Below, one piece after another: positions 23,730 through 53,095 of a stretch of 64,000 nucleotides of DNA. Source of the DNA: Aestuariibaculum sp. M13. Its GTDB lineage: Bacteria > Bacteroidota > Bacteroidia > Flavobacteriales > Flavobacteriaceae. Position 1 is the stretch's first letter, and each line of letters starts with the position of its first letter. The notes beneath the pieces are model-generated. The model saw nothing but the letters and a program-made list of their open reading frames with translations, made no database searches and was not told the origin of the DNA. Both the position numbers and the translations under genes were made by a program. The stretch is from positions 434,001 to 498,000 of the forward strand of contig NZ_JANIAC010000002.1 of assembly GCF_024723255.1 (NCBI RefSeq), written 5' to 3'.

Positions 23730-25697
23730 TTGAAAATACTAGACCGATATATCCTTACGTCTTACCTCAAGACTTTTTTGAGCGTGTTTATTATACTCAT
23801 GCTCATTTTTGTATTACAAACCATCTGGTTATACATTAAAGAACTTGCAGGGAAAGATCTTGACATAGAAGTAATTTTTAAATTTCTGTTTTATTTCACA
23901 CCTAAGCTAATTCCATTAGTTTTACCATTAACCATTCTTCTGGCCTCTATTATGGTTTTTGGAAGTTTTGCAGAAAACTACGAGTTTGCTGCCATGAAAT
24001 CGACTGGAATTTCATTACAACGTGCCATGTCGGGACTAAGTGTTTTTATAGTAATCTTAGGGGTTACAACGTTTTTCTTTTCTAATAACGTTATTCCCTG
24101 GGCGGAGCTAAAGTCTTATAACCTGCGTAAAAATATAGCGAAGTTAAAACCAGCTATGGTTTTAGCTGAAGGACAATTCAATCCTGTTGGCACTTACAAT
24201 ATAAAGTTTGACAAGAAACATGGCGATCGCGGACAGTATTTAGACAGTGTTACCATTCATATTAAAGGTAATGATGGTCGTAAAAATGCTACGGTTATTC
24301 GCTCTAAAACTGGTGAATTAGCCAGTAGAGAAGATTCAAATGTTATCAAACTTATTTTAAAAGATGGTAATTATTACAGCGATATTTACTCGAAAGATCC
24401 GAAAGAACGAAACAAAAAGCCATTCGCAAAAAGTTCTTTCGAAACGTACACCATAAATATAGACATCTCGCAAATGAACGAGGTTGATATGGACGACGAA
24501 TCACAAACCGATAAGCACAGCATGCTGGATGTGATTGATTTAAACAAGGCTATAGATTCGCTTGAAATTAAACGTAAGGAAGACCACGAAACGTTTTCAA
24601 AAAGTATTTTCCAACGAACCAGTATCATGGCTAATAACCACAGAATATCTAAAGTTAAAGAGCGTGATTCTGTAAACTTAGGCCCCTTATTAGATAGTCT
24701 GGAATTAAAACGACAAATAGAATTAGTTGATATGGCTCAAAAAACAATGGGAAGCGCCAATCAGCTCCTCATTTCCAGAGAAACTCCAATTAAAGCTACC
24801 AATTCCATCATCAACAGACATTATATTTCTCTGCATGAAAAATTCGCTTTAGGTTTTGCTTGTATCGTTCTGTTCTTTGTTGGGGCACCATTAGGAGCTT
24901 TAATACGTAAAGGAGGAATTGGTTTGCCAATGGTTATCGCTATTTTATTATTCCTAACCTATCACTTTATTGGAATTTTTGCTACAAACAGTGCTAAAAA
25001 CGGAGGCTTCAACCCTATTCTTGCCAGCTGGTTTTCTACTCTGGTTATGTTACCTCTTGGTGTATTTTTAACCAAACGAGCCACAGCAGATAAAGGCCTA
25101 TTTGAATTCGATCATTTAATTGAACCAATTAAGAAAGCTCTAAATATTAAAGAAAAAGAAACCGTAGACTACACGTTTATGCATTCGTATAAAAACGATA
25201 GAATTCTTGATGTTATAGCCAACTATGAAGCTTTGGGTCATGACGAGAACACACGATACGAAGCTTTAAAACTGCTTAATTTTCGGGGGTATTCAACACG
25301 ATCTTTGCGTAGTCAAGGTCTGGAGATAGATGAAGCCTTTGATACTTCTGAAGATATTTATGCTGATTATAAAGACCACACCAAATTTGCAATTACACTA
25401 TATACAACAGGAGCTATTTTACTTATCCTACACTTTGTCTTTGCAAATAATAAATTACCATCGGTTGCAACGGCTTCCATTCAGTTAAGTATTGTGTCGT
25501 TTACCATGTATATTATTTATTATTTCAAAACGATTATAAATATCAATCAGTTTTATAAACATATCAATAAACCAGAAAAAAAACCACATCTCATTTTAAT
25601 CATTATTGGTTTACCTCTTTATTTTATTGGATATGTTTTTCTAAATTCTAAAATGAAGGAAGACCTAAAACAAAATTGTTTAAATTCCTTAAAATAG
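23730..25697 (+). CDS. LptF/LptG (YjgP/YjgQ) family permease
   Basis: A 655-residue protein from TTG 23730, 11 bp after the LolA-like gene. The N-terminus MKILDRYILTSYLKTFLSVF is diagnostic of the family. Three helices precede a long periplasmic region with the beta-jellyroll (about 130-370). Three more helices (about 370-450) follow, with GAPLGALIRKGGIGLPM. LptF/G form the LPS-export ABC permease with LptB. E. coli members are about 360 residues; here a C-terminal extension of about 200 residues adds further helices and a Tyr/Arg-rich soluble part. The long periplasmic section also contains charged coiled stretches. Confidence 0.9.
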   Translation: MKILDRYILTSYLKTFLSVFIILMLIFVLQTIWLYIKELAGKDLDIEVIFKFLFYFTPKLIPLVLPLTILLASIMVFGSFAENYEFAAMKSTGISLQRAMSGLSVFIVILGVTTFFFSNNVIPWAELKSYNLRKNIAKLKPAMVLAEGQFNPVGTYNIKFDKKHGDRGQYLDSVTIHIKGNDGRKNATVIRSKTGELASREDSNVIKLILKDGNYYSDIYSKDPKERNKKPFAKSSFETYTINIDISQMNEVDMDDESQTDKHSMLDVIDLNKAIDSLEIKRKEDHETFSKSIFQRTSIMANNHRISKVKERDSVNLGPLLDSLELKRQIELVDMAQKTMGSANQLLISRETPIKATNSIINRHYISLHEKFALGFACIVLFFVGAPLGALIRKGGIGLPMVIAILLFLTYHFIGIFATNSAKNGGFNPILASWFSTLVMLPLGVFLTKRATADKGLFEFDHLIEPIKKALNIKEKETVDYTFMHSYKNDRILDVIANYEALGHDENTRYEALKLLNFRGYSTRSLRSQGLEIDEAFDTSEDIYADYKDHTKFAITLYTTGAILLILHFVFANNKLPSVATASIQLSIVSFTMYIIYYFKTIININQFYKHINKPEKKPHLILIIIGLPLYFIGYVFLNSKMKEDLKQNCLNSLK

Positions 25698-30104: not shown

Positions 30105-30189
30105 GGAGAAATGGCAGAGTGGTCGAATGCGGCGGTCTTGAAAACCGTTGAGGGTCACACCTCCGGGGGTTCGAATCCCTCTTTCTCCG
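30105..30189 (+). tRNA. tRNA-Ser (anticodon UGA)
   Basis: This is an 85-nt class II tRNA. The acceptor stem GGAGAAA (30105-30111) pairs with TTTCTCC (30182-30188), and the discriminator base is G. The anticodon loop CTTGAAA reads TGA. A long variable arm (TTGAGGGTCACACCTCC region) is typical of serine tRNA. The T loop is TTCGAAT. The CCA end is not encoded. Confidence 0.96.
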
Positions 30190-30193
30190 CAAC

Positions 30194-32129: not shown

Positions 32130-32810
32130 ATGATTAATTTACTACAAAGCTTTAAAATAGAAGTACCTAAGGGTATTTTCATTAAAGACCCTGAAACCTC
32201 AGACTTGGGTAAACGTATCATTAAACATAGCATTTTGCTTATTGATGAATTAGGATTTGAACTTTTCACATTCAAAAAACTTGGGGTAGCAATTAATTCA
32301 AACGAAAGTTCTATTTATCGATATTTCGAAAGCAAACATCATTTGCTCATGTATTTAACCTCGTGGTACTGGGTTTGGATTGAGTATCAATTAGTTTTAG
32401 AAACTTTTGCATTAAAACATCCTGAAGAAAAACTTAAAAAAAGCATTGAGGTACTAACCAGAACTACTGAAGAGGATAGTAATTTTGAGCATATTAACGA
32501 AGTTGTGCTAAACAAAATCATTATTAGTGAAAATGCTAAGGCCTACTTAACCTGTGATGTAGACTCAGAAAACGAAGAAGGCTTTTTTAAACCCTTTAAA
32601 CGTGTTGTGACAAGATTTTCTGAAATTATTCAGGAATATAATAAAAACTATACTTACTCGATTAGTTTGGCCAGTTCTACAATTGAAGGCGCTTTACATC
32701 AGCACTTTTTTCAACAGCACATAAAAAGTATTACAAACTGTAATAAAACAACATCTGTAACCGAATTTTATACCAACTTAATATTTAATACACTAAAGCA
32801 TGGAGAATAA
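32130..32810 (+). CDS. TetR/AcrR family transcriptional regulator
   Basis: A 226-residue regulator. The N-terminal HTH covers about 28-75. It begins with KRIIKHSILLIDELGFELFT and holds FKKLGVAINSNESSIYRYFESKHHLLMYL, the classic TetR recognition helix region. The C-terminal ligand/dimer domain is helical and not diagnostic. It is the first gene of an exporter operon. The ABC gene starts inside its last codons (11-bp overlap), so regulator and transporter levels are coupled. It is probably a repressor of its own operon, released by an exporter substrate (inference). Confidence 0.88.
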   Translation: MINLLQSFKIEVPKGIFIKDPETSDLGKRIIKHSILLIDELGFELFTFKKLGVAINSNESSIYRYFESKHHLLMYLTSWYWVWIEYQLVLETFALKHPEEKLKKSIEVLTRTTEEDSNFEHINEVVLNKIIISENAKAYLTCDVDSENEEGFFKPFKRVVTRFSEIIQEYNKNYTYSISLASSTIEGALHQHFFQQHIKSITNCNKTTSVTEFYTNLIFNTLKHGE

Positions 32811-34464
32811 CAACGTTTTATCACCTTGGAAACGTTTTCTAGGTCTTGTTCAACTTGAAAAAAAAGACATATTCAGAGTCGCTTACTTTGCCATTTTTGA
32901 GGGGATTTTAGCTTTAACCTTACCCTTAGGAATTCAAGCTATTATTACACTTTTACAGGGCGGACAGGTTTCTACTTCCTGGATTGTTTTAGTGGTTTTA
33001 GTAACCTCGGGCGTGGCGTTTACAGGTATCTTAAAACTTATACAAATTAGAATTATTGAAAGTATACAGCAGCGTATTTTCACAAGAGCTTCATTCGATT
33101 TAGCTTATAGATTTCCTAAAATTAAAATGGACGAAATGCGCAATTACTACCTGCCCGAATTAGCCAATCGTTTTTTCGATACCTTGAGTATTCAAAAGGG
33201 ACTTTCTAAAATACTTATCGATATTCCATCAGCTTTTTTACAGGTTATCTTTGCCTTAATCCTGTTATCATTTTATCATCCATTCTTTATTGTATTCGGA
33301 ATTCTTTTATTAGGACTCATTTTTATCGTATTTAAATACACCGCAAAAAAAGGTTTGGACACCAGTTTAAAAGAATCTAAATACAAGTATAAAATGGCGC
33401 ACTGGCTTGAAGAAATTGCCCGTACCGTTATAAGCTTTAAACTATCAGGAAAAACCAGTTTGGCTCTTGACAAAACCGACGATTTAGTTTTCGATTATGT
33501 AAGCGGGCGTGAAAGTCACTTTAAAGTTTTAATGCTTCAGTTTAAACAAATGATTGGTTTTAAGGTTATTGTAACTGCAAGTTTATTATTGGTTGGAGGA
33601 TCTTTAGTACTTCATCAACAAATGAATATTGGTCAGTTTGTTGCTGCCGAAATCATCATCATCTTAATTATTGCTTCAGTTGAAAAACTTATTTTAAGTT
33701 TAGAATCTATTTACGATGTCCTTACAGCTATTGAAAAATTAGGTCAAGTAGTAGATAAACCTATTGAAAATCAATTCGGAGAAGAAGTATCTGATGCAAG
33801 ACCGTTTACTATAGAACTTAAAAATGCTGGATATCGGGTTTACAACCGTAACAAGCCAATTTTAGAACGCATTTCTTTTACTATAGAGCCAAGTGATCGT
33901 GTTTTAATTCAAGGAGAAAGTGGTTCCGGTAAATCAAGTTTATTGCAGCTTATCTCAGGCGTCGTTGCCCCTACCGATGGTTATATTTATATCGACAACT
34001 TATCTATTGAAAGTTTACACATTAACAAATACCGTTCGCATTTAGGGATGGTGCTTTCGGAAGAATCGCCTTTTGAAGGAACCATTCGAGAAAATGTGAC
34101 GTTTGGAAATCGTGACATTAGTGACGAAGACATTTTTAGTGTGTTTGAAAAAGTAGGTCTAACCAGTTTTTTAAAGCGACAACAACACGGTTTAAACACC
34201 TTAATAAAACCAGAAGGAAAACAGATTCCGTACTTTATTTCCAGTAAACTACTACTGGCAAGAGCCATTTTAAAACAACCTAAAGTTTTAATTTTAGAAG
34301 AGCCTTTAAAGCAATTTAATTTTGAAGAATCTGAAAAAATATTTGAATACTTATGCGACAAATCCAATCCTTGGAGTGTTATTGTAGTTAGTAACCTTAA
34401 CTACTGGAAACACAAGTGCAACAAGCACATCACTTTAGAAGATGGTCACATGATTAATTCGTAA
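32800..34464 (+). CDS. ABC exporter half-transporter with degenerate ATPase domain
   Basis: A 554-residue protein with an N-terminal six-helix exporter domain (about 20-310) and a C-terminal nucleotide-binding domain (about 330-554). There is no C39 peptidase domain. Walker A is intact (GESGSGKSS, about 372-380) and Walker B reads VLILEEP (about 494-500), with Glu for the usual Asp. The Q-loop Gln is replaced (LGMVLSEESPF), the LSGGQ signature is absent (IPYFISSK before LLLARAIL), the D-loop is not SALD, and the H-loop His is missing (VVSNLNYW). ATP hydrolysis is therefore doubtful. HlyD-like and TolC-like genes follow, as in type I secretion. Confidence 0.88.
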   Translation: MENNNVLSPWKRFLGLVQLEKKDIFRVAYFAIFEGILALTLPLGIQAIITLLQGGQVSTSWIVLVVLVTSGVAFTGILKLIQIRIIESIQQRIFTRASFDLAYRFPKIKMDEMRNYYLPELANRFFDTLSIQKGLSKILIDIPSAFLQVIFALILLSFYHPFFIVFGILLLGLIFIVFKYTAKKGLDTSLKESKYKYKMAHWLEEIARTVISFKLSGKTSLALDKTDDLVFDYVSGRESHFKVLMLQFKQMIGFKVIVTASLLLVGGSLVLHQQMNIGQFVAAEIIIILIIASVEKLILSLESIYDVLTAIEKLGQVVDKPIENQFGEEVSDARPFTIELKNAGYRVYNRNKPILERISFTIEPSDRVLIQGESGSGKSSLLQLISGVVAPTDGYIYIDNLSIESLHINKYRSHLGMVLSEESPFEGTIRENVTFGNRDISDEDIFSVFEKVGLTSFLKRQQHGLNTLIKPEGKQIPYFISSKLLLARAILKQPKVLILEEPLKQFNFEESEKIFEYLCDKSNPWSVIVVSNLNYWKHKCNKHITLEDGHMINS

Positions 34465-34469
34465 TTACT

Positions 34470-35831
34470 ATGCTAAATATATCTCATAATAAAGTTTCAG
34501 AACTACTTGATTTAAACAAATACAAATCAGGTCAGGCAACACAACATACCAATCAGCATAACCTGTTTAGACGTGTTTTGCTAATCAGTACCATATTGGT
34601 TGTTATCATTTTGTTTTTACCCTGGACACAGAATGTAACCAGTAAAGGTTTAGTAACTACACTAAAGCCTAACCAACGTCCGCAAACGTTACAATCGCCT
34701 ATTCCGGGACGTATTGATTCTTGGTTTGTTCAGGAAGGTGATTTTGTTAAACAAGGCGATACCATTCTTAAAATATCGGAAATTAAAAGTGAATATTTCG
34801 ACGACTTACTAACCGAACGTACAGGTGACCAGATTAAGGCAAAATCGGCTTCTGTTGATGCATACCGTTCAAAAGTTCAAGCGTTGAAAAATCAGTATGC
34901 AGCATTACAACAGGAGCAACAGTTAAAGTTGGAGCAAGCTAAAAACAAATACATCCAGTCTAAATTAAAAGTAGAATCAGATAGCATTGATTTAGAAGCT
35001 GCTAAAACCAAAGCCAAAATTGCCGAAACTCAGTTTGAGCGTACTTTATCGTTACAAGAGCAAGGGTTAAAAGCTGTTAAGGATGTTGAAGAATACCGAA
35101 ATAAACTTCAGGAAGCCAATGCCAAATACGTATCTCAGGAAAACAAATGGCTGGTGTCAAAAAACGAGGTGATAAATACCAAACTGAACATCTCAACCAT
35201 CAAGGCCACTTACGGCGACAAACTATCTAAAGCACAAAGTGATTTATACACTGCCGAATCGAGTGCTTTAGACAGTGAGGCTCAAGTTTCAAAATTAGAA
35301 AACAGTTTGGCTAACTACGAAAAAAGAAACAGTTTACTTTATATAACGGCTCCGCAGGATGGTTATATCAATAAAGCCATAAAATCAGGAATTGGAGAAA
35401 CTTTTAAAGAAGGAGAACCATTAGTTGGTATTATGCCGGCAAACTACGAATTAGCTGTCGAAATGTGGGTTAGACCAATAGATTTACCTCTTTTACATAA
35501 AGGAGAGCACGTGCAAGTGCAATTTGAAGGTTGGCCTGCAATCGTATTTAGTGGCTGGCCTAATGTCTCTTACGGTACTTATGGCGCAACCATTGTTGCT
35601 ATCGAAAACTTTGCCAGCAAAAATGGTATGTATCGTGTGCTAATAAACAGAGATCCAGATTATGGTCCGTGGCCAGAAGCTTTACGTGTTGGTTCTGGGG
35701 CACAAACTATTACACTTTTAGAAGATGTGCCTATTTGGTTTGAAATCTGGCGACAAATAAACAGCTTCCCTCCTAACTTTTATGTTCCAGAAGGTGAAGA
35801 TGATTCTAAAAAAGGTGAAGAAAAGAAATAA
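34470..35831 (+). CDS. HlyD-family membrane fusion protein
   Basis: A 453-residue periplasmic adaptor. The cytoplasmic N-terminus (about 1-32) is followed by an anchor helix (about 33-52, RVLLISTILVVIILFLPW). The first half of the lipoyl-like domain is LQSPIPGRIDSWFVQEGDFVKQG (split around Pro). A long coiled-coil hairpin (about 110-290) contains many Gln, Lys and Glu. The second lipoyl half is YITAPQDGYINKAI. The beta-barrel region follows. It starts 5 bp after the ABC gene. It should bridge the inner-membrane transporter and the TolC-like channel. Confidence 0.9.
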   Translation: MLNISHNKVSELLDLNKYKSGQATQHTNQHNLFRRVLLISTILVVIILFLPWTQNVTSKGLVTTLKPNQRPQTLQSPIPGRIDSWFVQEGDFVKQGDTILKISEIKSEYFDDLLTERTGDQIKAKSASVDAYRSKVQALKNQYAALQQEQQLKLEQAKNKYIQSKLKVESDSIDLEAAKTKAKIAETQFERTLSLQEQGLKAVKDVEEYRNKLQEANAKYVSQENKWLVSKNEVINTKLNISTIKATYGDKLSKAQSDLYTAESSALDSEAQVSKLENSLANYEKRNSLLYITAPQDGYINKAIKSGIGETFKEGEPLVGIMPANYELAVEMWVRPIDLPLLHKGEHVQVQFEGWPAIVFSGWPNVSYGTYGATIVAIENFASKNGMYRVLINRDPDYGPWPEALRVGSGAQTITLLEDVPIWFEIWRQINSFPPNFYVPEGEDDSKKGEEKK

Positions 35832-35854
35832 ATCCAATCATTTAATTCTACATA

Positions 35855-37285
35855 ATGATTTTGAAAAACATACATTTTACAAAACTTAAAACATTATCAC
35901 TTCTGTTATGCATGTTTGGTTTGTTCTTTTCAGTTCAGGCGCAAACATCAACTGATAGTATTTTTAGCCTGGAAGAGTATTTAGGTTATGTAAAACAATA
36001 CCATCCTATTGTGAAACAGGCACAGCTAATCGCTTCCGAGGGAGAAATAAAACTTCTTAAAGCACGTGGTGCTTTCGACCCTAAAATAGAAGTCGATTAT
36101 AGTAAAAAGAAATTCACAGGAACTGAATATTACGATAAGTTAAACGCTGCCTTTAAAATTCCTACCTGGTACGGGATTGAACTTAAAGCTAATTACGAAA
36201 ATAATGAAGGCTACTACCTCAATCCGGAATCAAAAGTTCCTGAGGACGGACTGTACAGTGCAGGTGTTTCCATGTCGTTAGCCAAAGGATTTTTAGCTAA
36301 TGAACGTATGGCAACCCTAAAACAAGCCAAGCTTTACAAAGATATTAGTCTTAACAAACAAAGTCTGACTACTAATGAGGTACTTTATAATGCCATTGAA
36401 ACCTATTTTAACTGGTTGAAATGCTATCAGGAATTTAAAGTTTATACCGATTACCAAACCAATGCTGACGAACGCTTAAAAAATGTGATTACCAGCTTTG
36501 AAGCAGGCGACAAACCTGCTGTAGATACTTTAGAAGCCAGCATCAATTTTAAAAACAGAGCACTGGATGTTGAAAAATCGCGTATTAAATACATTAAATC
36601 TCAACTGGAATTATCCAATTACCTGTGGTTAGAAGATAATACTCCTGTTGAACTTGACTATAGCTTAATCCCCGATGTAAATTCACCATTTATAGCAGAT
36701 AGAGTTTTAAATAGTAGTCTCCTTGAAATTTCAGATGATCTTCTTGAAAATCATCCTAAAATACAAGCTTTAGCTTTGCAAAGGCAACAATTAATTTTTG
36801 AAAAACGTTTAAACAATAATAATCTGCTTCCGAAAATAGATGTACAATACAACTTTTTAACCAGCGATTACGAAAAATTAAACACCTTAAACACGCAAAA
36901 CTATAAAGCCGGACTAAATATTAGTATGCCTCTGTTTCTGCGTAAAGAACGTGCTGATTTAAAACTTACGAAACTAAAATTGCAGGATATCGATTTTAAT
37001 TTATCGTCAACCAAAGTCACTTTACTAAACAAAATCAATGCAGTACAACAGGAAATCGAATCATACGAAAAACAAAGTGATATTGTGCAAAATCTGGTTA
37101 ATGATTACAAACAATTGGTTATAGCTGAAGAGAAGAAATTTGAACTTGGGGAAGGCTCTTTATTTCTAATTAATTATAGAGAAGCCAAACTTATTGAAAC
37201 CGAATTAAAAAATATTGAAGTCACAAATAAGGTCTTAACGACTAAAGCTAATTTTGCGCAAATATTAAATACCTTAGAAGATTAA
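35855..37285 (+). CDS. TolC-family outer membrane efflux protein
   Basis: A 476-residue protein with signal peptide (LLCMFGLFFSVQAQ). It shows the TolC double repeat of long helices: SLEEYLGYVKQYHPIVKQAQLIASEGEIKLLKARGAFDP near the N-terminus and a second helical half after about residue 300. It forms the outer-membrane channel of the tripartite exporter. It lies 23 bp after the adaptor gene and ends the operon at a strong terminator. An exported substrate is not encoded nearby. Confidence 0.9.
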   Translation: MILKNIHFTKLKTLSLLLCMFGLFFSVQAQTSTDSIFSLEEYLGYVKQYHPIVKQAQLIASEGEIKLLKARGAFDPKIEVDYSKKKFTGTEYYDKLNAAFKIPTWYGIELKANYENNEGYYLNPESKVPEDGLYSAGVSMSLAKGFLANERMATLKQAKLYKDISLNKQSLTTNEVLYNAIETYFNWLKCYQEFKVYTDYQTNADERLKNVITSFEAGDKPAVDTLEASINFKNRALDVEKSRIKYIKSQLELSNYLWLEDNTPVELDYSLIPDVNSPFIADRVLNSSLLEISDDLLENHPKIQALALQRQQLIFEKRLNNNNLLPKIDVQYNFLTSDYEKLNTLNTQNYKAGLNISMPLFLRKERADLKLTKLKLQDIDFNLSSTKVTLLNKINAVQQEIESYEKQSDIVQNLVNDYKQLVIAEEKKFELGEGSLFLINYREAKLIETELKNIEVTNKVLTTKANFAQILNTLED

Positions 37286-37688: not shown

Positions 37689-40600
37689 ATGAAAAAATCT
37701 GCTCTTGGATTAATGCTGTGTTTCGTTGCACATTGTTATGTAGCTTCGGCACAACTTAAAGGATTTACTTATGGCGACAGAGAAGCTCCAACTGGTAAAG
37801 AATGGGAATCACCTTCTCACATAGCTCATAATAAAGAACAACCTCGTGCTACTTTTTTCTCTTTTAAAGAAGTTAATACGGCTCGTAAAGTTTTACCTGA
37901 ACATTCTGAATATTGGAAATCATTAGACGGTACATGGAAATTTAACTGGGTAAAACACCCCGATTTACGTCCTATCGAGTTCTTTAAACCTCAGTTTGAT
38001 GTTAGTAACTGGGATGATATTTCTGTTCCTTCCAACTGGAATATTTATGGACTTAATAAAGATGGAAAACAAAAATATGGAACCCCTATTTACTGTAATC
38101 AGCCTGTAATTTTTCAACATACTGTCGCCTTAGATGACTGGAGAGGTGGCGTTATGCGAGAGCCAGCCAAAGACTGGGTAACCTATGATGCGCGCAATGA
38201 AGTTGGTTCTTATCGTCGGAATTTTGAAATCCCTGAACATTGGGATGGACGCGAAATTTTTATTCAATTTGATGGTGTAGACTCTTTCTTCTACCTATGG
38301 ATAAATGGCGAATACATTGGTTTCTCTAAAAACTCCCGAAATGCCGCAGCATTTAATATTAGTAAATACATAAAAAAGGGTAATAATATAATTGCTGCCG
38401 AAGTGTATCGTAATTCTGATGGTTCTTTCCTTGAAGCACAAGATATGTTCAGACTGCCTGGAATATTCAGAACTGTACAATTGTATGCTACACCTAAAGT
38501 TCAAATTCGTGATCTTTTCGTACTTCCAGAACTTGATGATAGCTTTAAAACTGGTTCCTTGAAGATTTCAGCTGATATTCGAAACTTTAATAAAAAGACA
38601 GCTAAAGGCTACAAAGTAGACTATTCGTTATTCGAAAACACACTTTATTCTGACGAAAACAGCCATGTTAAAGACGCAATTGCAAGGGCAACTATACCTA
38701 TTGTAGAAGGAAACGAACAAGCAAATACTTCCGCCATAATGCATATTACCTCTCCAAAATTGTGGTCTGCTGAGAAACCTTATCGCTATACGCTTGTAGC
38801 TCAGCTAAAAGATAAAACAGGTAAAGTCGTTGAAACGATTTCTACATATACGGGATTCCGGGAAGTGGTAATTAAAGATACGGCAGCAGAAGATGACGAA
38901 TTTGGTTTAGCTGGTCGTTACTACTATATAAATGGTAATACAGTAAAACTTAAAGGTGTTAATCGACATGAAACAAACCCTAAAACGGGACATACACTTT
39001 CTCGTGAACAAATGGAACAAGAAGTAATGTTAATGAAGCGCGCTAACATTAATCATGTTCGTAACTCTCACTACCCTCCCGATCCTTACTGGTACTACCT
39101 TTGTAATAAATACGGAATTTATCTTGAGGACGAAGCTAACATTGAATCACATCAGTATTATTATGGCGAAGCATCACTATCGCATCCACCTGAGTGGCAA
39201 AATGCCCATGTTGGACGTGTGGTTGAAATGACGCATCAAAACAAAAACCACCCTTCCATTGTTATTTGGTCTCTTGGTAACGAAGCCGGGCCTGGTAAAA
39301 ATTTTGAACATGCCTACGATGCCTTAAAACAAATTGATATCTCACGACCGGTTCAGTATGAACGCAACAACAGCATTGTCGATATGGGATCCAATCAATA
39401 CCCTTCAATTGGCTGGATGAAAAGTGCGGTTACCGGCACCATGGGAATTAAATATCCGTTTCACATTTCAGAATATGCCCACTCTATGGGTAATGCCTGC
39501 GGTAACTTAATTGATTATTGGGAAGCTATAGAATCTACCAATTTCTTTTGTGGAGGAGCTATTTGGGACTGGATTGACCAGGCCATATACAATTATAAAG
39601 CTGATGGTACTTCATATCTAGCATATGGTGGCGACTTTGGAGACAAACCTAATAGCGGACAGTTTGTGATGAACGGAATCCTTTTTGCCGAACGCGACCC
39701 AAAACCTCAATATTTTGAAGTAAAAAAAGTATATCAGAACATTGGAGTTAAGGCTTTGGATTTAAAAAATGGAACATTCGAAGTTTTCAATAAATATTAT
39801 TTCAAATCACTCTCAGATTATAATTTAGAATGGTCTCTATGGGAAAACGGTTCAAAAATAGAAGATGGTCAATTAATCCTTGCTCCAATGGATGCAAGAA
39901 CAAAATCCGCAATATCCATCCCTTATAACTTTTCAGATTTTAAAACTCAGTCTGAATACTTTATAAAACTTCAGTTTACACTGAAAGAAAATCAACCATG
40001 GGCTAAAAAAAGTTATGTTCAGGCTGAGGATCAGTTTTTACTGAAAACAAAAACAGACATTCCTTCCATTGCCAAAATGACTAAAGCTGAGGGAGGTGAA
40101 AATGTTGAAATTATAGATTCTGAAAACAACATTAAAATTGTAAAAGGAAAAGGATTCATTGCTAAATTCAACATGCTTGACGGGTCGCTATTTGGACTAA
40201 ACTATGATGGCAATACAATTATTACTGATGGCTATGGTCCAAAACTCGATGCTTTCCGTGCCTTTGTTAATAACGATACATGGGGCTACCAAAGTTGGTA
40301 CGAAAAAGGTCTTCATAATTTAAAACACAAAACTATAAGTTCTAAAATTAAAACTAATGAAGATGGTACAGCTACGTTAGCTTTTACAGTTATTTCTCAA
40401 GCACCAAATGCCGCTCGGGAGCATGGTGGAACAAGTGGTAACGTTTTAAGTATTGAAAAACTTACAAATCGTAAATTCGATGAAAATGACTTTCGTTTTA
40501 TTACAAACCAAATTTGGACGGTTTATCAGGATGGTTCTATAGAATTGCAATCCAACATCAGTTCCAATGAACCCAAATTCGTACTACCACGACTTGGGTA

Positions 40601-41711
40601 TTCTATGACAATTCCAAAAAAATATAATAATTTCACTTATTATGGTCGCGGACCTATTGGTAACTATAACGATCGTAAAACGTCTCAAAATATTGAAAAA
40701 TATAACACCACGGTTAACGAAGAATTTATAAACTTTCCGAAACCTCAGGATATGGGGAATCACGAAGAAACACGCTGGTGTGCTTTGACTAACAACAATA
40801 CAGGTGCTGTATTTATATCGAATAACAGCATGTCTGTTAGTGCATTGCCTTATACTGCTCAGGCCATGGCGACATCTGCTCATATATACGAATTACCTAA
40901 AACTGGAGATACCACACTCCATCTCGATGTAAAAGTATCTGGTCTCGGAGGTGCCAGTTGCGGACAAGGAGGGCCTTTAACATACGATCGTGTTTATGCC
41001 GACCAATATGACTTTGGATTTATTATTCGTCCGGCTGGCGAGGATATAAATAGTATAGTTCATGTTGCGCCTGCAGGAGAAGTACCTATTGGGATGACAA
41101 GATCTACTACCGGAGCCGTAAGCCTTTCTTCTAGAAATAAGAGTTCCCAAATATGTTATTCTTTAAATGGAGGTAAGACTCATAACTACATAGAACCTAT
41201 ACCCCTTCGTACTGGAGGTACTGTGAAAGCCTGGTTTAAAGACAATAAAGATTCTGAAATTTCAATAACCTTTAATAAAATTGAAACCATTAAAACCACA
41301 GTGGCATTCGTTAGTAGTGAAGAACCAGGTAGCGGTAATACTGCCAAAAATTTAGTTGATGGTGACCCTGCTACTATCTGGCACACGATGTACTCGGTTA
41401 CGGTTGCACAGTTTCCGCACTGGGTGGACTTTGATTGTGGTGAAGCTAAATCCATTAAAGGATTCTCGTATATGCCGCGCCAGGACGGAGGTAATAATGG
41501 GAATATAAAAGATTATACCATTCATACTAGTCTTGATGGAAAAAACTGGGGCGAACCATTACACACTGGTAAATTTTCAAGTGATAGCAAAGCAAAACGC
41601 ATCGTATTTAAAGTTCCTATAAAGGCGCGTTTCATTCGCTTAACGGGAAAAAGTTCACATAACGGCCAGGATTTTGCCAGTGGTGCAAGCTTTGATGTTC
41701 TTGCTGAATAA
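37689..41711 (+). CDS. GH2 beta-galactosidase with C-terminal F5/8 type C (CBM32-like) domain
   Basis: A 1340-residue exported enzyme with signal peptide MKKSALGLMLCFVAHCYVASA. Domains in order: GH2 sugar-binding jelly roll (about 90-270), Ig-like domain, TIM barrel (about 410-700), DUF4981-like domain, and LacZ small-chain domain 5 (about 830-1110). A chitobiase/Fn3-like module (about 1130-1205) precedes a discoidin F5/8C module (about 1205-1340). Acid/base Glu532 is in IWSLGNEAGPG; nucleophile Glu595 is in HISEYAHSMGN. It should release terminal beta-galactose from a polysaccharide or glycoside. It is a single-gene unit converging on the glucan locus; substrate linkage to that locus is not shown. 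Confidence 0.93.
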   Translation: MKKSALGLMLCFVAHCYVASAQLKGFTYGDREAPTGKEWESPSHIAHNKEQPRATFFSFKEVNTARKVLPEHSEYWKSLDGTWKFNWVKHPDLRPIEFFKPQFDVSNWDDISVPSNWNIYGLNKDGKQKYGTPIYCNQPVIFQHTVALDDWRGGVMREPAKDWVTYDARNEVGSYRRNFEIPEHWDGREIFIQFDGVDSFFYLWINGEYIGFSKNSRNAAAFNISKYIKKGNNIIAAEVYRNSDGSFLEAQDMFRLPGIFRTVQLYATPKVQIRDLFVLPELDDSFKTGSLKISADIRNFNKKTAKGYKVDYSLFENTLYSDENSHVKDAIARATIPIVEGNEQANTSAIMHITSPKLWSAEKPYRYTLVAQLKDKTGKVVETISTYTGFREVVIKDTAAEDDEFGLAGRYYYINGNTVKLKGVNRHETNPKTGHTLSREQMEQEVMLMKRANINHVRNSHYPPDPYWYYLCNKYGIYLEDEANIESHQYYYGEASLSHPPEWQNAHVGRVVEMTHQNKNHPSIVIWSLGNEAGPGKNFEHAYDALKQIDISRPVQYERNNSIVDMGSNQYPSIGWMKSAVTGTMGIKYPFHISEYAHSMGNACGNLIDYWEAIESTNFFCGGAIWDWIDQAIYNYKADGTSYLAYGGDFGDKPNSGQFVMNGILFAERDPKPQYFEVKKVYQNIGVKALDLKNGTFEVFNKYYFKSLSDYNLEWSLWENGSKIEDGQLILAPMDARTKSAISIPYNFSDFKTQSEYFIKLQFTLKENQPWAKKSYVQAEDQFLLKTKTDIPSIAKMTKAEGGENVEIIDSENNIKIVKGKGFIAKFNMLDGSLFGLNYDGNTIITDGYGPKLDAFRAFVNNDTWGYQSWYEKGLHNLKHKTISSKIKTNEDGTATLAFTVISQAPNAAREHGGTSGNVLSIEKLTNRKFDENDFRFITNQIWTVYQDGSIELQSNISSNEPKFVLPRLGYSMTIPKKYNNFTYYGRGPIGNYNDRKTSQNIEKYNTTVNEEFINFPKPQDMGNHEETRWCALTNNNTGAVFISNNSMSVSALPYTAQAMATSAHIYELPKTGDTTLHLDVKVSGLGGASCGQGGPLTYDRVYADQYDFGFIIRPAGEDINSIVHVAPAGEVPIGMTRSTTGAVSLSSRNKSSQICYSLNGGKTHNYIEPIPLRTGGTVKAWFKDNKDSEISITFNKIETIKTTVAFVSSEEPGSGNTAKNLVDGDPATIWHTMYSVTVAQFPHWVDFDCGEAKSIKGFSYMPRQDGGNNGNIKDYTIHTSLDGKNWGEPLHTGKFSSDSKAKRIVFKVPIKARFIRLTGKSSHNGQDFASGASFDVLAE

Positions 41712-41804: not shown

Positions 41805-44084
41805 TTAAAGTTCAAAATCCTGTTCTAAAACAGTTTCAGAACTTCCACCAACAAAAACTTTAAAATCACCTGACTCGAAAACAAACACTCCAGAGTTATC
41901 AAAGAAGCCTAATTCATTTTTAGTTAAAACAAAGTTTATCGTTTTTTTCTCATCAGGATCTAAGTCTATTAACTCAAATCCTTTTAACTCTTTTACAGGT
42001 CGGGTAATACTAGCTACTAAATCTCTTATATAGAGTTGAACAACTTCCTTCCCCTGAACATCTCCTGTATTTGTAATATCAACCGAAACTTTTACCTCTT
42101 CTTCATTTACTTTACTGATTTTAAGATTAGAATACGAAAATGTAGTATAACTTAACCCATGACCAAACGCATATAAAGGTTTATTACTTTCATCCGTATA
42201 ATGCGACCAAAACACTTCGTTTGGTGCTGGAATAACTGGTCGCCCGGTATTTTTATAATTGTAATAAATTGGCACCTGCCCCACATGTCTTGGGAAAGAC
42301 ATAGGTAACTTTCCACTTGGGTTATAATCCCCATACAACACCTGTGCTATGGCGTGACCGCTCTGTGTTCCCAACTGCCAAGCCTCTACAATTGCCGGAA
42401 TATGTTTGTCTGCCCAGGTAATAGCCAATGGTCTTCCATTGTTTAATACCAAAACAATATTCTTGTTTACAGCATATACAGCTTCTAATAATTCCTGTTG
42501 TACACCTGGTAAATCTAAATCAACTCTACTTCTTGCCTCTCCACTTTGAAAACCATGCTCCCCTAGAACCATGACCACAACGTCAGCATTTTTAGCAACA
42601 GAGATAGCTTCTAAAAACCCACTTTTATCAGACATATTAATATTTAATTCCTTTGCAAAAGTAGTTTCTCCATAAACTAAATCGGCTCCTTTAGCATACG
42701 TTAGTTTATTTTCTGAATACTGCTGCATCCCTTCTAAAACTGAAACCGCAGTACTATCTTTCGCTGCAATGCGCCAGCTTCCTAGCGGACTTGTCTTATC
42801 GGCAGCCAAGGCTCCTATTAAAGCTATATTCTGACCACGTTTCTTTAATGGTAATAACTGATTCTCATTCTTTAAAAGCACAATTGATTTCTTAGCGACA
42901 TCTAAAACAGCATCATTAATTTCTTTGCTACCTATTACTTCCTTTTCGGTTTCGCTGTCACAATATTTGTAAGGATCATCGAACAGTCCTAATTCAAACT
43001 TTACTCTTAGAATGCGCTTTACCGCATCATCAATTAAAGCTTCATCTACCTGCCCTTCTCTAACAAGGTTTGCTAATTCATCAACATAGGCATAGGATTC
43101 CATATCCATATCGGAACCGGCAGTAACTGCTAATCTTGCGGCTCCCTTTTTATCTTCAGCAAAACCGTGTGCCATCATTTCATTTATTGAACCCCAATCG
43201 GAAACTACAAAACCATCATAATTCCATTTTCCTTTTAAAATGTCACGCTGCAAAAAAGCATTTCCAGTTGCCGGAATACCGTTTAATTCATTAAACGAAT
43301 TCATAAAAGTTTTCACGCCGGCATCGGCTGCAGCCTTAAACGGTGGAAAAATGATGTTATTCAATGTCGAGGTTCCTATATCGACGGTATTATAATCTCT
43401 TCCTGATTCTGAAAAACCATAACCCGCCCAATGTTTGGCACAGGCTGCAATGGTTTCTGAAGATGATAAATCATCACCTTGAAATCCTTCTACACGAGCT
43501 ACGGCTATTTTACTACCCAAAAACGGATCTTCACCTGCGCCTTCCATAACACGTCCCCAACGGGCATCTCTGGAAATATCAACCATGGGTGCAAATGTCC
43601 AGTTTATACCTGCCGCTGCAGCTTCCTTTGCAGCCACCTCAGCCGATTTTTTTATAGCTTTCAGATCCCAACTAGCAGCTTCTGCTAATGGAATAGGACT
43701 TAAAGTTTCATAACCGTGAATCACGTCGAAACCAATAATTAACGGAATTCCTAAACGGGTTTCTTCAACCGCTATTTTCTGAACGGCTTTAACCTCTTTT
43801 ACACCGCGAACATTTAACATCGAGCCAACGTAACCTTTCTTTAAATGCTCGTACTTTTTAGCAGCATCGCCCGAAGACGGCGTTGGACCCGTAACATCCC
43901 AAAATCCGTTGTACTGATTCATCTGGCCAATTTTTTCTTCCAACGTCATTTTAGCTAATAAACTGGTTACTTTTTGTTCAATACCATCTGCTTTTATTTC
44001 AGTATTTACTTTTGCATTTTCTTTACATGAACTGTTAAAAATGAAAAGCAATATAAGTATCTTATATATGCGTTTTGTTTTCAT
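41805..44084 (-). CDS. GH3 beta-glucosidase (lipoprotein)
   Basis: A 759-residue GH3 enzyme with a lipoprotein signal (ILILLFIFNSSCKE, lipid Cys20). The N-terminal barrel has EKIGQMNQ, GFDVIHGY, FAPMVDISRDARWGR, KHWAGYG (about 217-223) and nucleophile Asp296 in GFVVSDWGSI. The second domain holds the general-acid region and ends in the Fn3-like C-terminal domain (about 660-755, GKEVVQLYIRDL). It should cleave beta-gluco-oligosaccharides from the non-reducing end. It starts 1 bp after the GH16 gene, so it is the last gene of the glucan locus. Confidence 0.95.
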   Translation of the reverse strand: MKTKRIYKILILLFIFNSSCKENAKVNTEIKADGIEQKVTSLLAKMTLEEKIGQMNQYNGFWDVTGPTPSSGDAAKKYEHLKKGYVGSMLNVRGVKEVKAVQKIAVEETRLGIPLIIGFDVIHGYETLSPIPLAEAASWDLKAIKKSAEVAAKEAAAAGINWTFAPMVDISRDARWGRVMEGAGEDPFLGSKIAVARVEGFQGDDLSSSETIAACAKHWAGYGFSESGRDYNTVDIGTSTLNNIIFPPFKAAADAGVKTFMNSFNELNGIPATGNAFLQRDILKGKWNYDGFVVSDWGSINEMMAHGFAEDKKGAARLAVTAGSDMDMESYAYVDELANLVREGQVDEALIDDAVKRILRVKFELGLFDDPYKYCDSETEKEVIGSKEINDAVLDVAKKSIVLLKNENQLLPLKKRGQNIALIGALAADKTSPLGSWRIAAKDSTAVSVLEGMQQYSENKLTYAKGADLVYGETTFAKELNINMSDKSGFLEAISVAKNADVVVMVLGEHGFQSGEARSRVDLDLPGVQQELLEAVYAVNKNIVLVLNNGRPLAITWADKHIPAIVEAWQLGTQSGHAIAQVLYGDYNPSGKLPMSFPRHVGQVPIYYNYKNTGRPVIPAPNEVFWSHYTDESNKPLYAFGHGLSYTTFSYSNLKISKVNEEEVKVSVDITNTGDVQGKEVVQLYIRDLVASITRPVKELKGFELIDLDPDEKKTINFVLTKNELGFFDNSGVFVFESGDFKVFVGGSSETVLEQDFEL

Positions 44085-44085
44085 A

Positions 44086-45195
44086 TTATTGGTATACTTT
44101 TACGTAATCAATCTCCATAACAGCCTCAGTAAAGTTGGGATCAATGGTAAACCAACTTCCACCAAGTGCTACATTTAAAATCAAAAACTGTGGTTTATCA
44201 TACGGCCAGGTAGTCACATTCTTAGTGGCTGGATTATAAGTGTATTTTAAATCGCCATCAATCAAAAACTGTAGTTCGTCTTCGTTCCAAATTAAGGAAT
44301 ATATGTGAAACGATGTCGCGTAGTCGGTCACTGTGGTTTCTCCTACTTTTACATTTTCGCAACCCCCGGAACAAGACAAGGTATGTGTGGCACTTGAAAC
44401 CACAGTTGCATTATGCCCCCAGTGTTCCATAATATCTATTTCACCGCACTCAGGCCAACCAACTTCATCAATGTTGGCTCCTAGCATCCAAATGGCTGGC
44501 CATGTTCCCTGTCCGCTTGGTAACTTCGCTCTTACGTCGATTCGTCCATAAGTAAACTCATATTTATCTTTAGTCAATAATCTTGCGGAGGTATAAGCCG
44601 AGCCCTGATAATCTTCCTTTTTAGCAATAATTTTCAACAGACCGTTTTCAACCTTCACATTATCTGAACGGTTGGTATAATATTGTTTTTCGCCATTTCC
44701 CCAGCCACAAATATCGGGACAACCATTACCTATATCGTACCCCCATTTTGAAGCGTCGGGAACACCATTTGTATTAAATTCATCAGACCAAACTAACTGT
44801 AAATCATTTGAAGCCACGTAAACCATCACCTTTTTAAATGTACTAATCTCATGGCCTGTTTTGGAATATGCAAATGCAGTGATTACATATTCATTAGTGC
44901 CTTCATTAATAAATGTATATTCAAAAACACCGGTTGTATTTTTAACTTCCTGTTGAGATTCTACTTTAAAACCATAGGAATCGGCATTATCTGCATGTAT
45001 CGAGACAGTAATTACTCCAGAGCCATCTCCATTAGGATTATTAGTGTCTGTTCCCAAAACATCAACCATTAAGGTTAAATTAGTAGGTATAATATCTTTT
45101 GGGGTATCTGGTGGGCTTAAATCATCGCTACCTCCTGAACAAGACAATAGCAGCCATAAGCCTATATTTAGAATATAAAGCATCTTTTTTATCAT
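44086..45195 (-). CDS. GH16 endo-beta-glucanase (laminarinase-like) lipoprotein with PKD-like domain
   Basis: A 369-residue protein with lipoprotein signal (LNIGLWLLLSCSGG, lipid Cys19). A PKD-like beta-sandwich follows (about 38-128). The GH16 domain (about 132-369) has the catalytic signature GEIDIMEHWG with Glu252, Asp254 and Glu257. The beta-bulge form ExDxME is that of laminarinases and other GH16_3-type enzymes. It should cut beta-1,3 or mixed-linked glucans at the cell surface. The PKD module is shared in sequence with the next two lipoproteins upstream. Confidence 0.93.
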   Translation of the reverse strand: MIKKMLYILNIGLWLLLSCSGGSDDLSPPDTPKDIIPTNLTLMVDVLGTDTNNPNGDGSGVITVSIHADNADSYGFKVESQQEVKNTTGVFEYTFINEGTNEYVITAFAYSKTGHEISTFKKVMVYVASNDLQLVWSDEFNTNGVPDASKWGYDIGNGCPDICGWGNGEKQYYTNRSDNVKVENGLLKIIAKKEDYQGSAYTSARLLTKDKYEFTYGRIDVRAKLPSGQGTWPAIWMLGANIDEVGWPECGEIDIMEHWGHNATVVSSATHTLSCSGGCENVKVGETTVTDYATSFHIYSLIWNEDELQFLIDGDLKYTYNPATKNVTTWPYDKPQFLILNVALGGSWFTIDPNFTEAVMEIDYVKVYQ

Positions 45196-45266
45196 TATAT
45201 TTTGTTTGAAATTTTCTAAATGCAGGAGATTAATTAAATAACCTCCTGCTATAGCTATATATCAAA

Positions 45267-46223
45267 TTACGGTTGAACTGGTTTTTCTGTTTGAAATAAG
45301 CAATACCAGGCATAACCGGGTTCAGTAACCCGAACTTCCAGCGTGCTATCTGTAATTTCTATGATTTCAAAACTACTACTACCCACATACCAGCTCATAA
45401 AACCACCATCTGAAAAATTAATGGTTGTTCCTCGATAAGGTTCATTATCAGGGTCATTTTGATCGATAGTGGCAATAGATGTAGAAGGTACAAGCTGCAC
45501 ATTTTTAACGCCAGCTAAAGACGGTACTACATCTGCACCATGACACGTATCACCAGTGACACCTAAATTACCAGCATAGGTGCCCGGAACATAAGCATCC
45601 CCGACAGTTTGTTCAAAAGTTAAAGTCCCATCAGCGGCCTGGGTAAAGACCATTTCGGCATCGTACATACATAATTTATCAGGGTGCCAGGCATTAGACT
45701 GAAACCAGGCCGGATATCTATGTTCTCCTCCACTTGAAACTTCATTAGGGCCTAAACCTATATTTGATGGCTTATCGGCTGCCCAATACCAGGTTTTACT
45801 GGTCCCAGGGCCTCCACTTAAGAAATCTTTAGCCTCCTGGTCTTCGAACGAACTATAGACTTCTACAATCATAGACTTCGAACTTTGTGCGCCTCCTGTA
45901 CCTGATGCAATCACTGTTACGGTATAAGCATTAACGCCAACTTGAGTAAAACGGTGTATTGCCTCTCCTGTTGAAACTACGTTATCGGTATCGTCTCCAA
46001 AATTGAAAATATAAGTAAAGGCATTATCGGCTTTAGCGGAAAATTTCACAAAACCAGTACCATCACCATTGGGATTACTGGCATCTACTCCAATAATCTC
46101 GACATCCATCTGAATATTAGTAGGTGTTATTATATCACCTATTTCTAAATCTTCATCCTGACAGCTCATCGTAAAGAATAAAACTGCACAAAGCGGAATT
46201 AATATATATTTTAGTGTTTTCAT
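45267..46223 (-). CDS. PKD-domain surface lipoprotein of the glucan locus
   Basis: A 318-residue protein with lipoprotein signal (PLCAVLFFTMSCQDED, lipid Cys21). A PKD domain (about 35-125) has FNFGDDTDNVVSTGEAIHRF. The C-terminal half (about 130-318) is a beta-rich domain with SKTWYWAADKP, GGFMSWYVGSSSFEI and GYAWYCLFQ. I recall similar proteins annotated as glucan endo-1,3-beta-glucosidases, yet no GH signature is visible, so a glycan-binding role is more likely. It sits between the GH16 gene and a larger surface protein. Confidence 0.8.
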   Translation of the reverse strand: MKTLKYILIPLCAVLFFTMSCQDEDLEIGDIITPTNIQMDVEIIGVDASNPNGDGTGFVKFSAKADNAFTYIFNFGDDTDNVVSTGEAIHRFTQVGVNAYTVTVIASGTGGAQSSKSMIVEVYSSFEDQEAKDFLSGGPGTSKTWYWAADKPSNIGLGPNEVSSGGEHRYPAWFQSNAWHPDKLCMYDAEMVFTQAADGTLTFEQTVGDAYVPGTYAGNLGVTGDTCHGADVVPSLAGVKNVQLVPSTSIATIDQNDPDNEPYRGTTINFSDGGFMSWYVGSSSFEIIEITDSTLEVRVTEPGYAWYCLFQTEKPVQP

Positions 46224-46241
46224 CTTTCTGTTTTTTTATTC

Positions 46242-48377: not shown

Positions 48378-48388
48378 AATGTCGTTTT

Positions 48389-49849
48389 TTAGTATCCTGG
48401 GTTTTGGTTCCATCTGCCTCCAGACAATTCAATCTCCTCTACTGGTATTGGGAATACCTCATGTTTACCAGAAACAAACCCTTCAATTTCTTGAGCTGCT
48501 CGTCCTGTTCTTACTAAATCGAAGAAACGATGCCCTTCTCCCACCAATTCTACACGACGTTCCTTATAAATAGCATTGGTTAAATTAGACCCTGATACAT
48601 TTACAGGAGCCAATGTCGCTCTGATTCTAACCATGTTTAAATATTCGGCTGCACGCGTATCACTAATACTACCCCTATTTAAAGCTTCAGCAGCCATTAA
48701 TAAAACATCGGCAAAACGAATGGATCTATAATTATTAGGATTGGTTAACGCAGCATCTGGTTGATTTAAATCTCCCTTTCTGGCGATATACTTTAAATTG
48801 AAATACCCAGTATGCTCATAACCTGTCGTATAAGTCGCTCCTGTTTCTTCTGCCCAGGCTTCTATATCTAAAATAGAATAGCCTAATCGAATATCTCCAT
48901 CTTCGAAAGCATCAACGACCTCTTGAGTTGGCACATTAAAACTATATCCGAAGTCGTAAAGTGGTCCATCATAACTTCTAACCCCATTAAACCCAACTGC
49001 ATAATTCCCTTCCAAACACTGAAAACAATCATAACTACCACCATCAACATCGGAATACTGGATTTCAAATACCGATTCAATATTGTTTTCATATTCATTT
49101 TCAAACATTAACGGCGCTTCTTCTGAAGACAACAATCTATGCGGCCCATTGTTTATCAAATCTTCCAAAACCGTTGCTGATTCAGAAAATTTATTTTGAT
49201 ACAAGTACGCTTTACCTAATAAAGCCTGTGCAGCACCTTTGGTCACGCGACCGGTTTCACTTTGTGTATATGGCAGATTAGCAGATGCAAAGATTAAATC
49301 TTGTTCAATCAAATCATAAACATCTGATGCTGGCGCGCGATCGATATTAAATTGTTCTCCAAACTGAATACGCTTATCGATGGCTAAAGGCACATCTCCA
49401 AACCATTTTACCAGTTCGAAATAATAATATGCTCTTAAAAATCTAGTTTGCGCAATTACACTGGTCTTATTAGGAAAATCTAACTTATCCTGAAATTCCA
49501 TAATGTAATTTGCACGATTCACCCCCGTATACATCCAAGTCCAGATTTCTCTTAAATTAGCATTAATAGGGGTATGAATCATATCGTCTATTTCCTGAAA
49601 ACCTATCACATCGGTAGCACTTTCACCACCACACAACGTATTATCTGAAGCAATTTCACCAAGCTGAACATTTCTAGCTGTTGCCTGTAAATAATCGTAA
49701 GCGGCAACCAAGGCATCCTGATAATCTTTTTCAGAATTAAAAAAGTCTTCTGAATTCGTATCTTCTGAGTCTACATCAACAAAGCTATCACTGCATGACC
49801 AAGTGATAAGTACCATCAGTAAGATTATATTTAGTTTTATATTTTTCAT
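48389..49849 (-). CDS. susD: SusD/RagB-family outer membrane nutrient-binding lipoprotein
   Basis: A 486-residue protein with lipoprotein signal (NIILLMVLITWSCSD, lipid Cys19). The N-terminal SusD-like part has VDSEDTNSEDFFNSEKDYQ and LQATARNVQLGEIASDNT; TPR helices follow with AQTRFLRAYYYFELVKWFGDVPL. The C-terminal RagB part has RSIRFADVLLMAAEALNR, YKERRVELVGEGHRFFDLVR and the EVFPIPVEEIELS-type ending. It caps the SusC barrel and captures the glycan. It lies 7 bp after susC. The presumed ligand is beta-1,3-glucan, from the neighbouring enzymes. Confidence 0.95.
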   Translation of the reverse strand: MKNIKLNIILLMVLITWSCSDSFVDVDSEDTNSEDFFNSEKDYQDALVAAYDYLQATARNVQLGEIASDNTLCGGESATDVIGFQEIDDMIHTPINANLREIWTWMYTGVNRANYIMEFQDKLDFPNKTSVIAQTRFLRAYYYFELVKWFGDVPLAIDKRIQFGEQFNIDRAPASDVYDLIEQDLIFASANLPYTQSETGRVTKGAAQALLGKAYLYQNKFSESATVLEDLINNGPHRLLSSEEAPLMFENEYENNIESVFEIQYSDVDGGSYDCFQCLEGNYAVGFNGVRSYDGPLYDFGYSFNVPTQEVVDAFEDGDIRLGYSILDIEAWAEETGATYTTGYEHTGYFNLKYIARKGDLNQPDAALTNPNNYRSIRFADVLLMAAEALNRGSISDTRAAEYLNMVRIRATLAPVNVSGSNLTNAIYKERRVELVGEGHRFFDLVRTGRAAQEIEGFVSGKHEVFPIPVEEIELSGGRWNQNPGY

Positions 49850-49856
49850 GATGAGA

Positions 49857-52865: not shown

Positions 52866-53095
52866 GTGAATTTAGTTTATTTAGTTTCCATAAAATTATG
52901 TTTACACTTTGATGTATTCTAATTTTCAACCACTACAAAAAACATACATCTTAAAAAAGAATGAAAAATATTACTAAAACCTCAATATTAATGCGTTTTA
53001 CTAATAATTTACAAAAGCCATAGAAGTTACTTAAAATCCTAAAATTCAGCAAATGTTGTGGTGTTGTATAGGTGAAAAAACTAGATGTTGTGGAT

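Follow-up and report, generated by a model that had tools for sequence, protein, structure and literature searches.

A four-gene exporter operon

A stretch of 64,000 nucleotides from Aestuariibaculum sp. M13 (contig NZ_JANIAC010000002.1, positions 434,001 to 498,000), here called the window, contains a four-gene run in which an ATP-binding cassette (ABC) exporter subunit carries a degenerate ATPase domain. Open reading frames and Pfam matches identified the run, all on the forward strand, as a TetR regulator, the ABC protein, a HlyD adaptor and a TolC-like channel (Table 1). The regulator itself scored under the TetR_N cut-off, and its place in the TetR family was established through its aligned orthologues, 12/12 of which matched TetR_N at E ≤ 0.01 (best, 2.4e-10). 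Its gene and the ABC gene share 11 nt, and 5 nt separate the ABC gene from the HlyD gene. The overlap fits the original prediction that the operon is regulated as a real exporter.

Table 1. Genes, domains and motif positions of the exporter operon, numbered from the first letter of the window
Feature	Position	Strand	Basis
TetR-family regulator, 226 aa	32130..32810	+	TetR_N 22.5 bits, under cut-off 24
ABC exporter subunit, degenerate ATPase domain, 554 aa	32800..34464	+	ABC_tran 74.5 bits; AlphaFold2 pLDDT 84.6
Transmembrane domain (TMD), residues 1-325	32800..33774	+	conserved; sole part kept in relatives lacking the NBD
Candidate coupling residue Glu284 in TM6 (AlphaFold2 helix 277-318)	33649..33651	+	Glu in 94/96 thinned family sequences, 0/20 controls
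Nucleotide-binding domain (NBD), residues 326-554, degenerate	33775..34461	+	Pfam, motif alignment
P-loop GESGSGKSS, residues 372-380, intact	33913..33939	+	alignment
Q-loop position 420, Ser replaces Gln	34057..34059	+	alignment
Signature position 476-480, IPYFI replaces LSGGQ	34225..34239	+	alignment
Walker B VLILEE, residues 496-501, Asp500 to Glu, catalytic Glu501 kept	34285..34302	+	alignment
H-loop position 532, Asn replaces His	34393..34395	+	alignment
HlyD/EmrA-type periplasmic adaptor, 453 aa	34470..35831	+	HlyD_3 47.6 bits
TolC-like outer-membrane channel, 476 aa	35855..37285	+	OEP 101.1 bits

A competent nucleotide-binding domain (NBD) carries the P-loop, the Q-loop, the LSGGQ signature, the Walker B Asp and Glu and the H-loop, residues whose functional roles in ABC proteins are well known. 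When these motifs were assigned in the window protein by alignment, only the P-loop and the catalytic Glu were found to remain. The losses of the Q-loop Gln, the signature and the H-loop His, and the change of the Walker B Asp to Glu, had been read from the sequence in the original prediction and were borne out. The boundary between the NBD and the transmembrane domain (TMD), at residues 325/326, was our choice.

The best NCBIfam model of the ABC protein was type_I_sec_LssB, and its scores fell far below the curated cut-offs of the type I secretion ABC models (TIGR03375, 185.4 versus 693.1 bits; TIGR01846, 141.1 versus 725.55 bits; TIGR01842, 129.6 versus 510.15 bits). The protein lacks an N-terminal peptidase-like domain, and it matched ABC_membrane at 25.3 bits, below the cut-off of 28. 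The adaptor scored 86.3 bits with type_I_hlyD (cut-off, 208.65) and 63.8 bits with the EmrA/EmrK model, and the channel 31.6 bits with type_I_sec_TolC (cut-off, 225.15). The HlyD adaptor and TolC-like channel expected of a type I secretion operon are present in the window and in loci of relatives. The earlier description of the membrane domain as normal needs amending, for this domain carries a set of polar residues that marks the family.

Decay and deletion of the ATPase domain among relatives

One relative at E ≤ 1e-60 was found in each of 118/199 sampled genomes of the family to which the window belongs. Relatives occurred in 97/395 genomes of the phylum Bacteroidota, and the count was the same when an NBD-less protein served as the query. 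Identical sequences were collapsed in the 216-sequence set, from which the canonical paralogues L002-L005 and also L180, L181, L240 and L261 were left out; the near-canonical L068 and L069 were set apart from the motif tallies. Among 141 distinct NBD-bearing relatives, the P-loop was intact in 112; of the other residues, 7 relatives kept the Q-loop Gln, 10 the Walker B Asp, 22 the catalytic Glu and 5 the H-loop His. Neither LSGGQ nor the full motif set was found in any of them (0/141 each). The Gln, Asp, Glu and His residues were all present in 20/20 canonical type I-like exporter controls of the phylum, which were the best TIGR03375 matches (n = 20), unthinned and with the near-duplicates L267-L269 and L271-L275 included. 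The orthologues share the motif losses of the window protein, and none with restored motifs was found. A sequencing error, which had been named as a possible refutation, is ruled out by the recurrence of the same losses in relatives down to ~44% identity.

The P-loop was lost or altered in 29/141 NBD-bearing relatives, at several separate places in the tree. Its pattern was gone while an NBD-sized domain was kept in L078, L108-L110, L111 and L304, which also lie at separate places, and the HlyD and OEP genes were kept beside those P-loop-lost members that were read with their flanks (L078, L108-L111). Some members of 700-780 aa (L071-L075, L079, L080, L098, L101 and L243-L260) have ~160 extra N-terminal residues that may be a degenerate peptidase-like domain; this extension gave no Pfam match at E 0.01, to Peptidase C39 or otherwise, in the four scanned (L244, L074, L080 and L101).

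A version of the protein that lacks the NBD altogether, 332-339 aa in length, was present in 6 of the 97 positive genomes of the phylum. Searches of two families gave 24 NBD-less places in one (151 genomes searched, 66 positive) and 51 places in 49 genomes in another (150 searched, 138 positive); these are hand counts of open frames of <430 aa, confirmed for those loci that were fetched and read. The short gene was followed by HlyD in all 40 loci read from these searches. Of 80 named loci, 61 were NBD-less, a proportion that is not a frequency, the 80 being the best matches to an NBD-less query; the 61 came from Hymenobacter, Pedobacter, Mucilaginibacter, Spirosoma, Dyadobacter, Larkinella, Sphingobacterium, Chitinophaga and others. 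HlyD lay directly after the NBD-less gene in 61/61 of these loci, at a gap of -53 to +118 nt that leaves no room for an NBD between the two. An OEP gene was present in 59/61, the remaining two loci ending at a contig end, and a TetR relative adjoined 11/61. The NBD-less genes are under purifying selection, with ratios of nonsynonymous to synonymous substitution (dN/dS) of 0.015-0.041 in 4/5 finite pairs and 0.179 in the fifth; 2/7 pairs were saturated.

Apparent short members were dropped where a contig end had cut the gene (G714) or the frame was broken (G719), and G615 and G846 were left out for contig ends or a partial match. Two genomes, G848 and G782, each hold two NBD-less operons (L166/L167 and L172/L173). 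In one Spirosoma operon (L225, 8257-9800), the OEP gene lies in two overlapping frames, possibly through a frameshift. A linked substrate gene was sought by clustering 466 neighbours of the 61 loci, and none emerged, the widest cluster covering 10 loci from 6 genera. By eye, this cluster may resemble an RND pump.

In a tree of the membrane domain, the 93 distinct NBD-less sequences formed one clade with a support of 1.0. This clade was nested in a node of 112 sequences (support, 0.999), and the 19 sequences of that node outside the clade have an NBD, albeit a degenerate one. Here the P-loop Lys was followed by Asn in 8, Asp in 4, Glu in 4 and His in 3, and by Ser/Thr in 0/19; Ser/Thr occupied this position in 115/122 other NBD-bearing relatives. 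These two nodes are firm. L291 was placed as sister to the NBD-less clade with a support of only 0.468, and the root node of the family had 0.79. At the base of the tree, L068 and L069 had lost the Q-loop Gln only and kept LSTGQ, the Asp-Glu pair and the His, while L079, L080 and L101 had lost both Gln and signature and kept Asp-Glu and His. The partial losses at the base, together with the loss of the P-loop Ser/Thr beside the NBD-less clade, indicate that decay preceded deletion. L068 and L069 are a possible picture of the ancestor. In L068, a 646-aa OmpA-domain protein is encoded directly upstream of the ABC gene.

We tentatively suggest, with somewhat less than even confidence, that the losses followed the order Q-loop, signature, Walker B Asp and H-loop, P-loop Ser/Thr and finally the whole NBD. 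On this suggestion, a primary transporter would have been converted across the phylum into a secondary, ion-driven one while TMD, HlyD and TolC-like channel stayed together, and the steps could be read in living relatives.

Conservation of the membrane domain and likeness to known transporters

In a 42-member alignment that included NBD-less members, all 16 invariant columns fell in the membrane domain, at residues 39-313. Entropies were calculated on sets thinned at 80% identity, comprising 31 NBD-less sequences, 16 with the N-terminal domain and 49 of the short form. In the short-form set, the NBD varied more than the membrane domain did (2.22 versus 1.39 bits), whereas the canonical controls showed the reverse (1.58 versus 2.03 bits). 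Pairwise identities of TMD and NBD in the window protein were 0.945/0.908, 0.886/0.790, 0.920/0.873 and 0.880/0.821, compared with 0.935/0.944, 0.683/0.817, 0.586/0.734 and 0.479/0.718 for a canonical exporter of the same genomes. Thus, selection on TMD versus NBD is reversed relative to canonical exporters.

Coupling helix 2 is the classic docking site of the NBD and lies at ~209-220 of the AlphaFold2 model. It was very variable both in NBD-less proteins (2.38 bits; 9/299 overlapping segments as variable) and in short-form proteins (2.30 bits; 4/299), and coupling helix 1 was variable in the two NBD-bearing groups (6/301 and 7/301 segments). The most conserved stretch of the NBD-less proteins was the intracellular extension of transmembrane helix (TM) 3, at 0.53 bits, and the cytoplasmic part of TM2 stood at 0.76 bits. 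Seven residues, K133, K137, K196, Y197, H240, F241 and E284, mark the family and were found in 0/20 canonical controls.

AlphaFold2 models of the window protein and of an NBD-less Pedobacter protein (predicted local distance difference test [pLDDT], 84.6 and 84.0) both had the membrane fold of type I exporters, and structure comparison showed the membrane domain of ABC exporters (type IV fold). The solved structures nearest to the window protein were PCAT1, TM287/288, HlyB and PrtD, with Foldseek TMq values of 0.91 for PCAT1 8vox, 0.90 for HlyB 8dck and 0.83 for 5l22. Those nearest to the NBD-less model were the membrane domains of TM287/288, TmrAB, HlyB and PCAT1 (Z 26.5 to TmrB chain 6rai_B over 320 residues, and 25.9 to HlyB 8dck_A over 324). 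The type I secretion ABC proteins HlyB, PrtD and LssB, and PCAT1, share this fold and the company of HlyD and OEP genes; they differ from the window family in that its ATPase motifs are lost and, in the derived clade, its NBD is absent.

A precedent that works in a similar way is SbmA/BacA, of the SLiPT group. SbmA is described as proton driven, with an exporter-type membrane domain and no NBD, and its proposed ancestor is a full-length ABC transporter that shed the NBD and the coupling helices (PMC13316013). SbmA/BacA is an importer with a YddA-like ancestor, whereas the window family is a type I-like HlyD/OEP exporter. Moreover, SLiPTs lack coupling helices, whereas the models here keep short ones, and the absence of an NBD is shared only by the NBD-less relatives and not by the window protein. 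Identity with SbmA was rejected: PF05992 (SbmA/BacA) was found in 0/9 genomes tested, with a positive E. coli control, and matched none of the proteins scanned with Pfam. No SbmA structure stood among the best 50 structure matches listed, which decides nothing. Conserved Glu, Asp and His residues are present in the family, and proton coupling through an SbmA-like glutamate ladder is putative.

A second precedent is the isolated membrane domain of LmrA (LmrA-MD), which is described as a secondary-active translocator, with a TM6 Glu, E314, essential for proton-coupled transport (PMC6155054). E284 of the window protein also lies in TM6. MsbA without its NBD, likewise an engineered truncation, reportedly also acts through its membrane domain as a secondary-active translocator. 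Both are laboratory truncations, whereas the deletion found here is natural and extends over many genera. EmrAB-TolC joins an ion-driven MFS pump of the inner membrane to a HlyD-family adaptor; the likeness lies in this adaptor, and the inner-membrane protein here is descended from ABC transporters rather than MFS.

The source of energy and its significance

It is highly probable that transport by this system is independent of ATP hydrolysis by its own NBD. We consider it probable that the operon, with its TetR regulator, encodes a type I-like tripartite exporter of ABC-derived TMD, HlyD and TolC-like channel that is no longer powered by ATP hydrolysis and that an ion gradient would drive. The TMD dimer would still alternate between inward-open and outward-open states and would hand its substrate to HlyD and OEP. 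That the drive is an ion gradient, as precedent and the conserved charges suggest, is for us an even proposition; most likely protons would be used, with coupling at polar residues conserved in the family, Glu284 of TM6 among them. The NBD that the window lineage retains may be an appendage that keeps the fold or regulates by binding ATP.

Several observations weigh against this explanation. LmrA-MD reportedly showed no current on addition of Mg-ATP, as expected (PMC6155054), and the precedent therefore covers gradient-driven flux only. Purifying selection on the NBD remains strong in the window lineage (NG86 dN/dS, 0.054, 0.075 and 0.079 in the 3/4 pairs with finite dS, the fourth being saturated; TMD, 0.030-0.046), at dS values of 1.2-2.0 that are close to saturation, and G372, G394, F425, G427, N432, R488 and P494 of the NBD are conserved in at least 95% of NBD-bearing members. 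These data, together with the P-loop kept by 112/141 relatives, suggest that nucleotide binding may matter in the window lineage. The group with the N-terminal domain shows no relaxation of coupling helix 2 (1.36 bits; 69/299 segments) despite its degenerate NBD, and coupling helix 1 is unremarkable in the NBD-less clade (48/301 TMD segments as variable or more). Finally, the polar set is also present in the near-canonical L068 and L069 and thus did not arise to replace ATP; it may serve substrate recognition or gating.

The strongest alternative, though unlikely overall, is that binding of ATP without hydrolysis gates or regulates the NBD-bearing members, the NBD-less clade being a derived offshoot powered differently. 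Nucleotide binding alone had been offered in the original prediction, and the intact P-loops and the low dN/dS of the NBD are in its favour. For the window protein and the 112/141 relatives with an intact P-loop this idea stands as possible, and it is our second choice for NBD-bearing members. As a general engine it is excluded, because the 19 closest neighbours of the NBD-less clade no longer have the P-loop Ser/Thr and 93 sequences have no NBD at all. The members that lost or altered the P-loop at several places in the tree and kept HlyD and OEP argue against it as well, and binding without hydrolysis yields no net energy for repeated cycles.

A less likely alternative is that the TMD borrows an ATPase encoded elsewhere, either a free-standing NBD or a canonical half-exporter, so that the NBD of the protein itself was no longer needed and disappeared. 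ABC ATPases are plentiful: the genome of the window holds 23 matches, 22 of them other than the ABC protein itself (best, E 1.3e-27; none within the window), and the genomes used for the NBD search hold 16-26 each, some free-standing at 230-350 aa. The high conservation of the intracellular helix extensions in NBD-less proteins is also in keeping with a borrowed ATPase. However, the matches listed in 10 NBD-less genomes did not include the family NBD, the best of them (28-32% identity; E 7e-29 to 2e-25) being canonical exporters of ~583-643 aa; as controls, the search recovered the source genome at 100% and G745 at 44% identity (7e-60). A split gene with its NBD moved elsewhere was rejected on this basis. 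Another ABC ATPase frame lay near only 7/121 NBD-less loci, a set with uneven flanks and some places counted twice, and near 4/61 named loci, which rejects a linked partner as a general feature. The variability of coupling helix 2 in NBD-less proteins argues in the same direction. In the lineage of L062, L162 and L223, a 282-aa ABC ATPase (ABC_tran in L162) is encoded downstream in the same orientation, and in L162 it is adjoined by a gene without a Pfam match; this arrangement is not general.

The suggestion of a partner elsewhere thus found no support, and that of a heterodimer fared no better. Heterodimeric exporters such as TM287/288, TmrAB and TAP have the same fold and degenerate ATP-site motifs in one subunit. 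Their usual gene anatomy is well known and is absent here: no consensus-motif partner subunit adjoins the ABC gene in the operon, and the window holds no other match to the ABC protein. A homodimer here, unlike those exporters, would have two degenerate sites.

It is more doubtful still that the TMD is a passive conduit or docking platform, which only anchors HlyD and OEP or leaks substrate down its gradient. The putative nature of the energy source leaves room for such a role, and in several genomes the adaptor is conserved as much as or more than the ABC protein (L108, 56% versus 43%). The residues of the intracellular helices and TM6 are nonetheless near invariant, a degree of conservation beyond what simple anchoring would seem to require. 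A pseudogene, sequencing error or decaying gene, for which the motif losses alone would speak, is scarcely credible and was rejected, as orthologues share the losses, purifying selection acts and the operon is kept.

The surroundings of the operon contain a tRNA-Ser at 30105-30190 and, on the forward strand upstream, ordinary core genes for FtsK (20625-23069) and an LptF/LptG permease (23730-25697). On the reverse strand, positions 41805-55909 hold a beta-glucan-type utilisation locus with GH3, GH16, a PKD protein, SusD, a SusC-like receptor (Plug) and a Y_Y_Y sensor-type protein. Beside it lies a GH2 beta-galactosidase-like protein with an F5/F8 domain (37689-41711).

No description of a tripartite exporter losing its ATPase was found in the open PMC literature, a scope outside which most subscription journals lie. 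The preferred explanation would make this family a natural case of an ABC tripartite exporter on its way to doing without an ATPase, and the label 'ABC transporter ATP-binding protein' misleads for such genes. Whether the TMD of an ABC exporter can pump unaided has been argued from engineered truncations (LmrA-MD and MsbA) and from SbmA. Here the truncation is apparently natural, in culturable genera of soil and water whose intermediates are alive, and the question is therefore directly testable by comparison within one operon, whose members variously bear an NBD, have lost the P-loop or lack the NBD. If the conversion to ion drive is true, NBD-free ABC-type transporters would have arisen here independently of SbmA/BacA, and energised tripartite pumps would gain a further type besides ABC, RND and MFS.

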